Shown in pieces: positions 36,711-43,354 of a stretch of DNA of 64,000 nucleotides. Under the pieces are notes generated by a model, which was not told the origin of the DNA, made no database searches, and saw only the letters and a program-made list of their open reading frames with translations. Both the position numbers and the translations under genes were made by a program. Source of the DNA: Arthrobacter oryzae (lineage in GTDB: Bacteria; Actinomycetota; Actinomycetes; Actinomycetales; Micrococcaceae); contig NZ_RBIR01000001.1 in assembly GCF_003634095.1 (NCBI RefSeq), forward strand, positions 372,001 to 436,000, written 5' to 3'. The first letter of the stretch is position 1. The number at the start of each line of letters is the position of its first letter.

Positions 36711-37829
36711 CTACCCTGCGATGAGTTCCTGGACCTGGCCTTCATGCAGGGCGATGTAAACATCGTCCCGGATCTGATTCGCCTCCGGATCTGTCATGGT
36801 CCGGGCGAGCGGGCGCAGCACCAGGCGGATCAACGCATTGGCCTGCCCATCGCGGCTACGGAGCCGCTCCTGCGCTGCCGCGGGAAGGTCCCTGTGCGAA
36901 GTGAGGGCCAAGAGTTCGACGCTTTCCAGGTCCTCGGCTTTCCGGCCCAACGCGGTCCGCACCCGGTCCCCGAGGACTTCGCCATCCAGGTCCCCGGGAA
37001 CGAGGATCGAAATGTCCCGGCGGATGGAAGGCATTTGGGAGACGCGTTTCCACGGCGACAGGTCCAGCATCTGCCGTTTGATGCGAGGGTCCGTAGACCG
37101 AAGCAACCTGATGTCAGGGATGCCTTTGCGGAGCATTAGGGCCCGGTCCAAACCCATCCCCAGCGCCAGTCCCGACCACTTCGCGGGATCCAGCCCGGCT
37201 TCGGAGAAGAGATGCGGCGCCATCAAACCGCATTCCGCGAGTTCGAGCCATTCCCCGGCCATGAGGACATCGACCTGCACGCCGTCCCGGGTATAGGGGT
37301 GAACCGCCGGAACTGCACGCCATTGCGCTCCCGGAAGCACCGCCTGCACCACTAAGGCGATCATGTCCTGCAGGGTGCCAGAGCCGAGTTGTGCCCGCGA
37401 GCTGACCCGCCAGAGGTCCACCTGATGGGGCGTCCCCACGTGCGTGCGGTCGATGGAATCGCGCCGATAGACCAGGCCGGGGATGGCCCAGAGCTCGTCC
37501 ATGGATTCGTCGGCATCCAGGGCCCGCAGCAGCGACGGGACGGACGCCGAGGTGTGGCTGCGGAGCATGACCGTCGGGCTGACGTAGCGGGAGTATTTCT
37601 GATCCCGCGTGACAGCCGAGGTGCTGAACCCCAAGCGGTCGTAGTTGTCGGCCACACTCACCAGGGGGCTGTGGCGAAGGATCCGTTCCCGCACGCTCCA
37701 TTGCCCGCGGAGCGTATCGATGACCCCTTGCAGCAGTGCCTGCATGGCATGCGGCTGGCTTTCCGGATCGGAGAGATCACGGATGGTTAGGGCGTCCTGG
37801 AGTTCGGAGGGACTGAGATAAGTGAGCAT
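36711..37829 (-). CDS. PheS-like single-chain ligase with C-terminal FDX-ACB domain (SrmL-type, function unknown)
   Basis: 372 residues. The core resembles the catalytic subunit of phenylalanyl-tRNA synthetase: a motif 2 region at about 119-138 (LVYRRDSIDRTHVGTPHQVD) and a motif 3 region at about 220-241 (GLALGMGLDRALMLRKGIPD). Residues 262-372 resemble the FDX-ACB anticodon-binding domain normally at the end of PheT (PSIRRDISILVPGD, then LRPLARTMTDPEANQIRDDV). So it is laid out like mitochondrial PheRS. The N terminus is short, without the PheS coiled-coil arm. It fits the family annotated as PheS-related mystery ligase SrmL; substrate unknown. Confidence 0.78.
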   Translation of the reverse strand: MLTYLSPSELQDALTIRDLSDPESQPHAMQALLQGVIDTLRGQWSVRERILRHSPLVSVADNYDRLGFSTSAVTRDQKYSRYVSPTVMLRSHTSASVPSLLRALDADESMDELWAIPGLVYRRDSIDRTHVGTPHQVDLWRVSSRAQLGSGTLQDMIALVVQAVLPGAQWRAVPAVHPYTRDGVQVDVLMAGEWLELAECGLMAPHLFSEAGLDPAKWSGLALGMGLDRALMLRKGIPDIRLLRSTDPRIKRQMLDLSPWKRVSQMPSIRRDISILVPGDLDGEVLGDRVRTALGRKAEDLESVELLALTSHRDLPAAAQERLRSRDGQANALIRLVLRPLARTMTDPEANQIRDDVYIALHEGQVQELIAG

Positions 37830-37833
37830 TGAG

Positions 37834-37896
37834 GGTCCTTGTGTTCGGATTCAAGTGGTGGCTAAATCCCCCCGACTCAAATCCGGCGCCAGGACC
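37834..37896 (-). promoter_or_regulatory. Folded 5' leader pairing the ribosome binding site of the PheS-like gene
   Basis: Read on the minus strand, GGTCCT (37896-37891) pairs with AGGACC (37839-37834), and inside it GGATTTGAGT (37884-37875) pairs with ACTTGAATCC (37856-37847) over ten pairs with two G-T wobbles around an 18-base loop. The AAGGA ribosome binding site, six bases before the ATG at 37829, is in the outer stem, so the fold would block translation. This suggests a cis-acting control element, possibly a riboswitch or a protein-binding leader. Confidence 0.6.
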
Positions 37897-38052
37897 TAGG
37901 CGCGCGCCTCAGTGCCCTCGCGACCGGAGACCGGCCGGGGGCACGTAAATCGACGCGTGGAGAGCATGGAGCGACTCTACTCCCAAAAGTGCGTGCATGG
38001 AGCGGTGGACCGGATCCGAACGGTCCGCCGGACCTCCGAATTCGGGGAAGCG

Positions 38053-38916
38053 TTAATCTCCAAGACTCAACTGCCGGGCGTGGAAGTCGAAGTGCAGCGT
38101 GGGGTAGGCGTAGACGTCCCGGACGGTCATGACGGGCTTGAAGAAGGGGTCCCACTTGTCCGGGAACGGCATGGACCGGGCCAGGGACTCCGGGGTCTCG
38201 CGTTCCAGCCTTCGTGACAAGGCCAGGATCGTCTTATCCAGTTTCCGGCCCATCCGGTGCCTGTTGTAGACGAGGGCGGCGGTGCGGGAACCCCAGTAGT
38301 TCACGGCGTCGAACGGGCGGGTGCCCGCGTTCAGTCCGGCGGCGAACGCAATGCCCACGCCCCCGGGGAGCCTGCTGACCGCCCGGACCAGGGGAAGCAG
38401 AGCGCGGACGACCATGTATCCGAAGACCATGTGGAAGAGCAGCTCTTCATTGGTCCACCGCGTGCCGTGGCTTTTGCGGCGCAGTGCCTCCGGCGTTGCG
38501 CTTCCCAGCCAGGCGTCGAGGCGGTGGACGGCGCGGCGGTACCCGGCCGCGATCTCCTCGCCTGTCGGCTCGTGGGCCTGCGCTCCCACCCTCAGGTCAG
38601 CCGGCGGCTGTGGCCTGACGCCGCGGATCGCCTGGCGGAGGGATTGCAGGTCCGGCTGTCCCGACAGGCCATGCCCGCTCGGGTACAGCCGGCAGGTGAC
38701 GGCCGGCAAGGCGTTGGACGGGTAGAGATCCGTCCCGTCAATGATGAAGGTCGGTGATCCGCGGAACGAGGCGGCGGCCGCGTCAGCGTCCGTGGTGATT
38801 TCGGTGACCGTCAGCAGCGCCGGATCGATGCCCTCCAGTTCCAAGGCGCTGGCGAACAGCTCCCGGGCCGAGGCGCCGTGGGGGCAACCGGGAATCGTCA
38901 GCAGTTCGATGCGCAT
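38053..38916 (-). CDS. Thioredoxin-like domain fused to a DinB-like domain
   Basis: 287 residues. Residues 1-95 look like a thioredoxin/alkylmercury-lyase-type domain: MRIELLTIPGCPHGASAREL, with Cys11 but no second Cys of a CxxC, then FRGSPTFIIDGTDLYPS. From about 125 to 287 it resembles the DinB/YfiT four-helix family, with RRAVHRLDAWLGS, RWTNEELLFHMVFGYMVVRA and a C-terminal His-rich LHFDFHARQLSLGD that could bind metal. Many DinB-fold proteins are thiol-dependent (mycothiol or bacillithiol) transferases, so a thiol link is plausible but not shown. Confidence 0.7.
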   Translation of the reverse strand: MRIELLTIPGCPHGASARELFASALELEGIDPALLTVTEITTDADAAAASFRGSPTFIIDGTDLYPSNALPAVTCRLYPSGHGLSGQPDLQSLRQAIRGVRPQPPADLRVGAQAHEPTGEEIAAGYRRAVHRLDAWLGSATPEALRRKSHGTRWTNEELLFHMVFGYMVVRALLPLVRAVSRLPGGVGIAFAAGLNAGTRPFDAVNYWGSRTAALVYNRHRMGRKLDKTILALSRRLERETPESLARSMPFPDKWDPFFKPVMTVRDVYAYPTLHFDFHARQLSLGD

Positions 38917-41356: not shown

Positions 41357-41779
41357 CTACCTGGCGGCCGGGGTGAGGGAGGCGATGAGGTCCTCGATGC
41401 GGGCCTTGATGTCGTCGCGGATCGGCCGGACGGCGTCGATGCCCTGGCCGGCGGGGTCTTCGAGTTCCCAGTCCTCGTAGCGCTTGCCCGGGAAGATCGG
41501 GCAGGTGTCGCCGCAGCCCATGGTGATGACGACGTCGGATTCCTTCACGGCCTCGGTGGTGAGGACCTTGGGGATTTCGGCGGACATGTCGATGCCGAGT
41601 TCGGCCATGGCCTCGACGGCGGCCGGGTTGACCTTGTCCGCGGGCTGCGAGCCGGCGGAGCGGACCTCGATGGCGCCCTGGGACAGGGTGGTGAGGAAGG
41701 CGGCGGCCATCTGGGAGCGGCCGGCGTTGTGGACGCAGACAAACAGGACGGACGGCTTCTTGGCGGTTTCGGTGCTCAT
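41357..41779 (-). CDS. arsC: Arsenate reductase, low-molecular-weight phosphatase type
   Basis: 140 residues. The P-loop CVHNAGR runs from Cys15 to Arg21, with the phosphatase DP loop at EDPAGQG near 107-113. Two more cysteines, Cys89 and Cys93 (GCGDTCPIF), fit the thioredoxin-coupled three-cysteine enzymes. It reduces arsenate to arsenite, which Acr3 exports. A thioredoxin reductase gene follows directly, which supports thioredoxin coupling. Confidence 0.93.
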
Positions 41780-41802
41780 CGGAGGTCTCCTGGGGTGTGG
41801 GG

Positions 41803-42900
41803 CTAGACGAAAATCGGGCTGGGAGCGAAGTAGCGTTTGCGGGCCTGCAACGCCACGTAAACCAGTGCAACAAGGACTGGGACTTCAATCAAGGGGCCGA
41901 CGACGCCGGCGAGGGCCTGCCCGGAGGTAACGCCGAACGTGCCGATCGCCACCGCGATGGCAAGTTCGAAGTTGTTGCCGGCGGCGGTGAACGCGAGGGT
42001 CGTGGTTTTGGCGTAGCCGAGGTCCAGCCAGCGGCCGATCAGCATGCCGGCGCCGAAGACCACCAGAAAGTAGACGAACAGGGGCACCGCGATGCGGGCG
42101 ACATCCAGAGGGCGTGAGGTAATGGTGCCGCCCTGGAGGGCGAACAGCAGGGTGATCGTGAAGAGCAGGCCGTAGAGCGCCCAGGGGCCAAGCCGCGGCA
42201 GGAACGTCCCTTCATACCAGTCCCGGCCCTTGGTCTTTTCGCCGATGGTGCGGGTGAGGAATCCGGCAAGGAGCGGCAAGCCAAGGAATATGAGTACCGA
42301 GGCCGTGATCGCCCAGAAGGAGAAGTCGGCACTGGTGGCCGGCAGTCCCAGCCAGACGGGCAGCACCTGAAGGTAGAACCAGCCCAGCGCGCCGAACGCG
42401 ACGACCTGGAATACGGAGTTGATGGCCACCAGGACGGCGGCGGCCTCCCGGTCACCGCAGGCGAGGTCGTTCCACACCATCACCATCGCGATGCAGCGCG
42501 CAAGGCCGACGATGATCAGTCCGGTCCGGTACTCCGGCAGATCCGGGATAAAGATCCAGGCCATGGCGAACATGAACGCCGGCGCCAGAACCCAATTGAG
42601 CACCAGCGAGGTGATCATCAGTTTGCGGTCGGCGAGGACGCGGTGAGTTTGGTCGTAGCGGACCTTGGCCAGCACCGGATACATCATCACCAGGAGTCCG
42701 ATAGCGATAGGCAGGGACACCTCGCCGATCTTCACCGCTCCCAGTGCAGTGTTGAGTCCGGGAACAAAACTGCCGAGCAGAAGTCCCAGGAGCATCGCCG
42801 CCACGATCCAGACCGGGAGAAAGCGGTCCACGGTGGAGAGCCTGCCGGCGGTGTCGGCCTCTCCGGGCGCGGGCGGCGGTGTTCGAGTCTGGATGCTCAC
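41803..42900 (-). CDS. acr3: Arsenite efflux permease Acr3
   Basis: 365 residues from GTG 42900, with AGGAG at 42905-42909. About ten membrane spans of the BART/ACR3 fold. The essential Cys of span 4 is Cys136 in LARCIAMVMVWNDLACGD, and the conserved Glu is in GNNFELAIAVAIGTFG. The protein exports arsenite using the proton motive force. It is divergent from arsR and first in the acr3-arsC-arsT-arsO run. Confidence 0.95.
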   Translation of the reverse strand: MSIQTRTPPPAPGEADTAGRLSTVDRFLPVWIVAAMLLGLLLGSFVPGLNTALGAVKIGEVSLPIAIGLLVMMYPVLAKVRYDQTHRVLADRKLMITSLVLNWVLAPAFMFAMAWIFIPDLPEYRTGLIIVGLARCIAMVMVWNDLACGDREAAAVLVAINSVFQVVAFGALGWFYLQVLPVWLGLPATSADFSFWAITASVLIFLGLPLLAGFLTRTIGEKTKGRDWYEGTFLPRLGPWALYGLLFTITLLFALQGGTITSRPLDVARIAVPLFVYFLVVFGAGMLIGRWLDLGYAKTTTLAFTAAGNNFELAIAVAIGTFGVTSGQALAGVVGPLIEVPVLVALVYVALQARKRYFAPSPIFV

Positions 42901-42928
42901 GGGGCTCCTGTGCTGCTGTGCTGCTCGG

Positions 42929-42989
42929 CAAGATTGATGAATGTCGATATCTGAAGTATCACTGCCTATATCGATCAATGTCAATCTTG
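42929..42989. promoter_or_regulatory. Divergent ars promoter with 22-bp imperfect inverted repeat
   Basis: Left arm 42929-42950 and right arm 42968-42989 are inverted repeats identical at 16 of 22 positions, with ATATCGA and AATCTTG at the ends. On the minus strand TTGACA (42984-42979), 17 bp and TGATAC (42961-42956) form a good promoter for acr3, within the repeat. ArsR bound to either arm would block it, and would also cover the arsR promoter. Confidence 0.65.
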
Positions 42990-42991
42990 TG

Positions 42992-42997
42992 CATAAT
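42992..42997 (+). promoter_or_regulatory. Probable -10 box of arsR
   Basis: CATAAT ends seven bases before the arsR ATG at 43004, so the transcript would start at the ATG and be leaderless. There is no purine-rich ribosome binding site between. The -35 region overlaps the right operator arm. Confidence 0.45.
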
Positions 42998-43003
42998 GGG
43001 TTT

Positions 43004-43354
43004 ATGAGCTCTCCGCAAACACTCGAGCCCGCGGTCGACGCGGACTGCTGCGCGCCGACGCAGAAACCGGCGATCAGTGCCGGCGAGGCGCATCACAGGG
43101 CGCTGGTCTTCAAGGCCCTGGCGGACCCGAACCGCCTGCGCTTGCTCTCCATCGTCAAGAGGGCCGACGGCGGCGAGGCCTGCGTCTGTGACCTTACCGA
43201 ACCGCTGGACCTGGGACAGCCCACCGTGTCACACCACTTGAAGATCCTGGTGGAGGCAGGACTGCTCAGCCGGGAAAAGCGCGGCACCTGGGCGTATTAC
43301 TCACTCGTGCCCGGTGCTGTTGAGCGCACCGCCGGGCTTTTGGCCTCCCTGTGA
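43004..43354 (+). CDS. arsR: ArsR-family arsenical repressor
   Basis: 116 residues. Winged helix: HHRALVFKALADPNRLRLLS, then LGQPTVSHHLKILVEAGLLS. The N-terminal Cys15-Cys16 (DADCCAP) and Cys60/Cys62 (ACVCDLT) resemble the arsenite site of Corynebacterium glutamicum ArsR, which uses a Cys-Cys pair near residues 15-16 plus a distal Cys, rather than the E. coli ELCVCDL type alone. It should repress acr3 and itself. The end overlaps the next gene by GTGA. Confidence 0.93.
   Translation: MSSPQTLEPAVDADCCAPTQKPAISAGEAHHRALVFKALADPNRLRLLSIVKRADGGEACVCDLTEPLDLGQPTVSHHLKILVEAGLLSREKRGTWAYYSLVPGAVERTAGLLASL

Follow-up and report, generated by a model that had tools for sequence, protein, structure and literature searches.

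A candidate leader-peptide attenuator with a conserved phenylalanine codon upstream of the PheS-like gene srmL

The PheS-like gene srmL lies on the minus strand of the window (the whole stretch of 64,000 nucleotides analyzed here), and the RNA ahead of its start codon is predicted to fold over the Shine-Dalgarno (SD) sequence. What signal would such a leader sense, and how would the signal reach the ribosome binding site? An earlier note on this DNA had described a folded element of 63 nt, and had considered autoregulation by the protein or a new riboswitch.

Fold over the srmL ribosome binding site

As srmL (36711–37829) is on the minus strand, the element has to be read on that strand. The structure claimed in the earlier note, a 6-bp outer stem over the SD enclosing a 10-bp stem with an 18-base loop, is present there. 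In the outer stem GGUCCU (37896–37891) pairs with AGGACC (37839–37834), which holds the AGGA of the SD, 4 nt ahead of the ATG at 37829; we call these strands segment 3, or anti-SD (37891–37896, minus strand), and segment 4 (37834–37839, minus strand). The inner stem is formed by GGAUUUGAGU (37884–37875) and ACUUGAAUCC (37856–37847) and has ten pairs, two of them G-U, so that the inner hairpin with its loop of 18 nt covers 37847–37884 of the minus strand. Both stems are found in the minimum free energy structure and in the centroid structure predicted for the 91 nt at 37820–37910 (minus strand, –34.5 kcal/mol).

Taken alone, these 91 nt are modestly more stable than shuffled sequences (z –2.0, 9 of 200 shuffles equally good), and the 133-nt leader is in clear excess on the minus strand (z –3.9, none of 200). 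The 63 nt of the described element give z –4.8 (none of 200) on the plus strand, which is not the transcribed one. In 105 leaders the mean unpaired probability of the SD is 0.19, vs. 0.33 when the upstream sequence is shuffled; the value is below the mean of the leader's own shuffles in 89 of the 105, with the SD equally buried in 24% of shuffles on average. The pairs that bury the SD vary by group (GGUCC/GGACC, GGUCUCC/GGAGACC, UAGUUCCU/AGGAAUUA). As far as sequence and modelled folds can tell, the srmL leader looks built for translational switching, and in this respect the earlier proposal of a structured leader hiding the SD of a PheS-like gene is supported, the more so as the SD stem covaries (see below).

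The element had also been called tRNA-sized. It is not a separate RNA: its first base also completes the stop codon of an upstream open reading frame (uORF), and the conserved unit is approximately 140 nt long. A separate tRNA-like RNA, suggested by the name SrmL and by the size, was rejected, as ARAGORN finds no tRNA in the 64-kb window; beside 38 actinobacterial srmL loci it finds only one tRNA-Leu (approximately 2 kb away) and one tmRNA (approximately 5 kb away). No Rfam 15 family reaches its curated (gathering) threshold in the window. Two weak hits are obtained at 37700–38060 with E-values up to 10, one to a tRNA-like pseudoknot (on the opposite strand) and one to a Xanthomonas sRNA; neither is a T-box or a riboswitch.

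Upstream reading frame and alternative helices

The folded stretch is the 3' half of the leader. The 5' half, absent from the first description, is occupied by the uORF (37896–37967, minus strand), which would encode the leader peptide MLSTRRFTCPRPVSGREGTEARA in 23 codons followed by a stop. A predicted –10 box, TAGAGT (37974–37979, minus strand), ends 6 nt before the uORF start, and the predicted transcript start is 71 nt upstream of the folded element rather than inside it. Codon 7 of the leader peptide is TTT (37947–37949, minus strand), the proposed control codon.

We collected 148 srmL loci from genome searches that sampled part of each group, with some genomes counted twice. Of these loci, 140 have a short ORF encoding F-xx-P at an almost constant position, usually as M-x5-F-xx-P-R-P; 137 were identified by a motif rule (TTT or TTC, plus CCC or CCT nine bases on) and three (L003, L033, L148) by inspection. 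Among the other eight loci, three are cut by contig ends, two are 5'-truncated, two represent one leaderless genome, and one is rearranged. Exclusion of leaders more than 95% alike from the 137 left 107 non-redundant ones. In 93 of these an ATG or GTG start is located exactly 18 nt ahead of the Phe codon, and 104 have TTT as that codon. As the motif rule demanded TTT or TTC, finding Phe at all is in part a product of the rule, whereas the choice of TTT is not. The srmL genes themselves have 80 TTC and 3 TTT codons, and the 12 window ORFs taken as genes have 91 and 8, respectively. In a leucine leader, attenuation is said to become sharper when the control codons are rare ones. The actinobacterial uORF has a single Phe codon and no run, and this codon sits outside the stems; the near-invariant TTT might also be a nucleotide motif instead of a codon. 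Five leader peptides compared with NCBIfam matched no family.

A –10-like TAnnnT box ends 6 nt before the uORF start also in other leaders, with T at –12 in 56, A at –11 in 67, and T at –7 in 74 of the 107. This spacing suggests that the uORF is probably leaderless. In a mod-3 test of hairpin loop lengths, the loop is 5 nt long in 87 of 107 leaders and 91 of 106 strong hairpins fall in one class, with 46, 35, and 24 of 105 in the non-coding control, the test being only suggestive.

The Phe codon is preceded by CGA (leader codons 6–7) in 85 of 107 leaders and by a Trp or Leu codon in 15 others, in contrast to the srmL genes, where CGA accounts for 310 of 4062 Arg codons.

Three further segments take part in alternative pairing on the minus strand. 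Segment 1 (CCCCCGGCC, 37933–37941) has two alternative partners, segment 2 and segment 3'. Segment 2 (CGGUCGCGAGGGC, 37914–37926) uses its 5' part for pairing with segment 1, and its 3' part (37914–37918) can pair with the anti-SD. Segment 3' (AGUCGGGGG, 37869–37877) is the long-range partner of segment 1 and, in the SD-hidden form, lies within the inner stem and loop described above. Two mutually exclusive sets of helices can be drawn, 1:2 with 3:4, where the SD is hidden, and 2:3 with 1:3', where it is free; the 63-nt element is the 3' part of the former.

Comparative support for these helices was assessed in an alignment of 64 leaders (A2), obtained by exclusion of L117, L130, L137, L138, L139, L147, and L149 and then of sequences more than 88% alike; from another leader alignment L117, L130, and L149 were left out. 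For helix 1:3' (columns 27–35 and 123–131) 97.6% of cells are paired and 31 cells are changed on both sides, by C-G to U-A (16), G-C to A-U (13), and C-G to G-C (2). Helix 1:2 has 92.7% of cells paired in its core, 70.1% in its outer part, and 16 doubly changed cells. None of 500 shuffles reaches the paired share or the number of doubly changed cells of either helix, and the covariation score is reached by none for 1:3' and by two for 1:2, these pair-count shuffles leaving the relatedness among leaders in place. The number of doubly changed pairs is reached by 90 and 180 shuffles, and that of further pair types by 86 and 478, for 1:3' and 1:2, respectively.

We also applied an alignment-free swap test, in which the complementarity of each leader's own segments was compared with that obtained with partners from leaders less than 65% identical. 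Own complementarity exceeds the swap mean in 60 of 64 leaders for 3:4, in 59 for 1:3', in 40 for 1:2, and in 36 for 2:3, and the observed total is reached by 0, 0, 3, and 0 of 500 permutations, respectively. Thus the covariation between anti-SD and SD, which the earlier note had named as the check to be made on orthologous leaders, is observed. Swapped partners do equally well in 22% of cases on average for 3:4, 31% for 1:3', 52% for 1:2, and 40% for 2:3. By these sequence comparisons helices 3:4 and 1:3' are well supported, and helices 1:2 and 2:3 less well.

When either set is forced, the hidden set, with 1:2, is favored in 50 of 64 leaders and the free set, with 1:3', in 14. Between the uORF and srmL, 106 actinobacterial leaders contain no T5 run and one T4 run, which argues against an intrinsic terminator there, and the SD is the likely output in Actinobacteria.

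SrmL, its spread, and leaders outside Actinobacteria

SrmL has 372 amino acids and, judging from profiles and a structural model, is a class II synthetase-like protein with a PheRS catalytic domain and an FDX-ACB-like C-terminal domain. It scores 527 bits with the NCBIfam family NF051887, "PheS-related mystery ligase SrmL" (curated cut-off 300), and 111 bits with the Pfam class II core tRNA-synt_2d; the FDX-ACB score of 24 bits is below the cut-off of 31. A model built from 24 homologues (mean pLDDT 91.7) matches human mitochondrial PheRS (5mgu) with Z 34.5 and rmsd 2.4 over 340 residues at 27% identity. As this match spans SrmL residues 1–369, SrmL is by this model of the one-chain PheRS type; human mitochondrial PheRS (PDB 5mgu, 3cmq) is likewise monomeric and has the same domain order.

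The two enzymes differ in the motifs FPFT and HQxE of the mitochondrial protein, replaced by HxYT and HQxD in SrmL. The source genome also encodes a canonical PheS with motifs FPFT and HQFE, which we take to line the Phe pocket, and SrmL has neither of the canonical motifs FxFT and HQxE. Its residues Q136, D138, H177, and Y179 are invariant in 24 of 24 sequences and in 8 of 8 that include the phage and Azotobacter proteins. The invariant stretches are HQxDxW (136–140) and HxYT (177–180). This suggests that the amino acid pocket of SrmL is perhaps distinct, and, as FxFT and HQxE are missing, the amino acid that it uses may not be Phe.

In the genus, srmL, including remnants, is present in 53 of 150 genomes; it was found in 11 of 396 sampled genomes of the order, 26 of 394 of the class, and 3 of 396 of the phylum, this genome being counted in each. 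Allowing at most one mismatch, we find the leader pattern in 48 of the 150 genus genomes; these all have srmL, and not one of the 97 srmL-negative genomes has the pattern, so that by this comparison leader and gene go together. Five further genus genomes, four of them srmL-negative, have only matches with two mismatches, taken as chance. The pattern is missing from five srmL-positive genomes, namely G019 and G025 (5'-truncated) and three in which only remnants of the gene are left. Split genes or remnants of srmL were noted in G022, G115, G110, G145, G081, G085, and G148, and in G148 the leader pattern is kept 66 nt before a C-terminal remnant. The gene seems to have been often gained and lost.

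In a scan of named genomes 352 relatives were found and 80 kept. The neighborhoods of 80 srmL loci contain no gene shared widely enough to indicate a pathway among the 25 clusters listed; of these, the widest comprises 7 loci less than 70% identical, and one cluster, of a transporter, has a total of 9 loci. In the window, ArsC-like, Acr3-like, and ArsR-like ORFs, presumably an arsenic-type set, are located at 41357–43354, approximately 3.4 kb from the srmL leader. Moreover, srmL occurs on Glutamicibacter and Azotobacter plasmids and in huge phages, and a partial copy was found on a Corynebacterium diphtheriae plasmid. On the Glutamicibacter plasmid pGnB68 (L159, 3323–6104) the chloramphenicol efflux gene cmx/cmrA is followed, as the next annotated gene, by srmL with its complete leader. 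A nucleotide search of plasmids with the leader gave no match, though two plasmids carry the leader by eye.

Outside Actinobacteria, the srmL gene on an Azotobacter chroococcum plasmid (52% identical) is preceded by the uORF MNNRSHRFSRPWVRSDQDRAARA, which might be longer by one Met and again contains CGA TTT. Its leader could form helices 1:2 (7 bp), 2:3 (9 bp), and 1:4 (10 bp), and a terminator stem of 13 bp with a T-rich tail. The predicted equilibrium fold combines 1:4 with 2:3 and does not include the terminator, and the consensus terminator scan found two vs. a shuffle mean of 0.5, which is not above the shuffles.

The second case is the srmL gene of a 635-kb uncultured phage (41% identical), whose leader peptide MNTNTTFNFFFSHKMV has four Phe codons and begins 4 nt after TATAAT, although a promoter match there is no better than chance (one found, mean 3.4 in shuffles). 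Helix 1:2 (10 bp) lies over the Phe codons, 2:3 has 8 bp, and the terminator is 11 bp followed by a U tract (mean 0.0 in shuffles); the predicted fold contains 1:2 and the terminator (z –4.6, none of 200 shuffles). By its sequence, this is the architecture of a classical Phe attenuator. Comparison thus points to a terminator as the output in these two relatives. Three of four huge-phage srmL loci have no such leader in the 350 nt inspected by eye. Two phage srmL loci have tRNA-Phe(GAA) genes nearby: in L161 (2214–3814) these are the nearest tRNAs on both sides, and in L163 (2306–3562) one is located upstream with a single tRNA-Val between. This proximity is only suggestive, as both regions are dense in tRNAs (11 in 6 kb each).

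Proposed mechanism, alternatives, and known systems

Taken together, these data lead us to regard the srmL leader as probably a ribosome-mediated attenuator that senses Phe-tRNA, with burial of the SD as the output in Actinobacteria. The uORF, probably leaderless, would be translated first, and its Phe codon UUU lies just ahead of segment 1. With ample Phe-tRNA, the ribosome would pass UUU, helices 1:2 and 3:4 would form, and the SD of srmL would stay hidden. When Phe-tRNA is short, the ribosome would wait at UUU, covering the start of segment 1. The ribosome footprint extends approximately 15 nt ahead of the P site, and a ribosome with UUU in the A site would cover the leader to about nt 31 and with it the first half of segment 1. 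Helix 1:2 would then open in its outer part, segment 2 would take the anti-SD by forming 2:3, and the freed SD would allow translation of srmL. Helix 1:3' may provide a second way of drawing the anti-SD off the SD, as 1:3' and 3:4 can coexist only as a pseudoknot. SrmL would then be an inducible, spare, monomeric enzyme of the PheRS type, called upon when either the normal PheRS or the Phe supply fails. A regulated, drug-resistant spare TrpRS exists in Streptomyces and shares the spare-synthetase trait with srmL.

In attenuators of the pheA, pheST, and trp type in gamma-proteobacteria, a short ORF contains codons of the regulated amino acid, and the leader forms 1:2, 2:3, and 3:4 from its segments. 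The uORF codons and segments of the srmL leader are of the same kind, as is the terminator in Azotobacter and in one phage, and the trp-type logic fits the actinobacterial, Azotobacter, and phage leaders. The actinobacterial srmL leader departs from this type: its only Phe codon is a rare one, its uORF is probably leaderless, it has the extra helix 1:3', and it would hide the SD rather than end transcription. A 2005 survey (PMC1262725) describes a leader-peptide attenuator of the pheST operon in gamma-proteobacteria and attenuators of trpS and leuS in Streptomyces, and reports no conserved RNA regulatory structure upstream of the phenylalanine operons in the Actinobacteria examined. The statement in the earlier note that no RNA of this kind had been described was therefore too strong, leader-peptide attenuators of synthetase genes being on record (PMC1262725). 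The trpS and leuS cases are likewise leader-peptide attenuation of a synthetase gene in Actinobacteria; the amino acid and the output differ.

The alternative that survives best retains the leader-peptide switch with a signal other than Phe-tRNA: a ribosome halted close to the stop codon, or else by a ribosome-targeting drug or the nascent chain, would cover the anti-SD and free the SD, in the manner of drug-induced resistance genes. We consider this unlikely. The uORF stop codon lies shortly before the anti-SD in the leaders and abuts it in the window, which would suit such an arrest. Equilibrium folding with a masked ribosome, a crude model, gives small effects only and does not reproduce a sharp switch: the unpaired probability of the SD is 0.19 in the ribosome-free leader, 0.22 when UUU occupies the A site, 0.22–0.25 with codons 6–10 in the P site, and 0.30, the highest value, at the last sense codon. 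By this model a ribosome at the uORF end frees the SD at least as well as one at UUU (0.30 vs. 0.22), and because the effects at UUU are small, we keep an arrest near the stop codon as a rival. It would also agree with the patchy occurrence of srmL, its presence on plasmids, the lack of common neighbors among the clusters listed, and the single case of adjacency to a chloramphenicol efflux gene. In translational attenuation of the erm type, a uORF, exclusive hairpins, a hidden SD, and drug-dependent arrest are combined, and such genes resemble srmL in the first three of these features, as well as in being patchy and found on plasmids. Their arrest depends on a drug, whereas the conserved signal of the srmL leader is a Phe codon. 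Outside the stems it is this codon, a rare synonym, that is invariant; moreover, four Phe codons are present in the phage leader and the gene is a PheRS relative, all of which argue against a signal other than Phe-tRNA.

Autoregulation in the manner of threonyl-tRNA synthetase, with SrmL binding its leader as a tRNA mimic and repressing itself, had been the suggestion of the earlier note. An enzyme of a tRNA-binding type behind a structured, conserved leader that, in the genus sample, is present only with the gene would be consistent with it. We nevertheless find it very unlikely: the start codon, the stop codon, and the rare Phe codon are conserved, and the uORF motif stays constant while the stems change in sequence; the most conserved part is a short ORF with a near-invariant rare Phe codon. 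The absence of a tRNA-like fold in the ARAGORN search and the terminator versions outside Actinobacteria point in the same direction.

Highly unlikely, too, are a small-molecule riboswitch, the other earlier suggestion, and a T-box-like sensor that binds tRNA directly. The leader is conserved and its mutually exclusive helices involve the SD, which would fit either. Translational T-boxes of ileS in Actinobacteria (PMC1262725) do offer a parallel, as there, too, the SD of a synthetase gene is masked by a hairpin, the sequestor, with an anti-sequestor as its alternative. The ileS T-box, however, binds tRNA directly, whereas the srmL leader has no T-box match, no Rfam family matches at curated thresholds in the window, and the conserved unpaired core is a part of the uORF. 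Finally, a leader that merely keeps srmL translation constitutively weak, conserved by uORF–srmL coupling, would account for an SD buried in most modelled states, but is hardly plausible, as a constant rate needs no mutually exclusive helices with compensatory changes.

As far as seen, the principle of the proposed Phe-tRNA attenuator is known, and the combination of sensor and output, the gene that it would control, and its spread are new. A literature search by title, with most subscription journals outside its scope, gave nothing on SrmL or its leader among the matches listed, where "SrmL" and "mystery ligase" occur in unrelated uses only; in the main text of PMC7162821 "tRNA synthetase" occurs 15 times and "phenylalan" not at all.

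The proposed attenuator would give the NCBI "mystery ligase" family a testable role: SrmL proteins would be spare enzymes of the PheRS type, controlled by a Phe sensor. Should SrmL stand in for a PheRS that is blocked, the presence of the family would point to resistance against inhibitors of a drug-target enzyme. A more speculative version, which we hold to be improbable, is that what SrmL, with its altered but invariant pocket, charges onto tRNA-Phe is not Phe, or not Phe alone, and that the leader induces SrmL on Phe-tRNA shortage, so that Phe codons stay readable or are re-read; if true, this would be a mobile, inducible way through Phe shortage or an attack on PheRS.

The leader is found in many actinobacterial genera, and it seems to keep its sensor while the output is a hidden SD or, in others, a terminator. 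Two loci from another class of the phylum (L138 and L139) have a divergent srmL and a shorter leader, the hairpin of which is a near-perfect CCCCCCGG palindrome over Pro codons.
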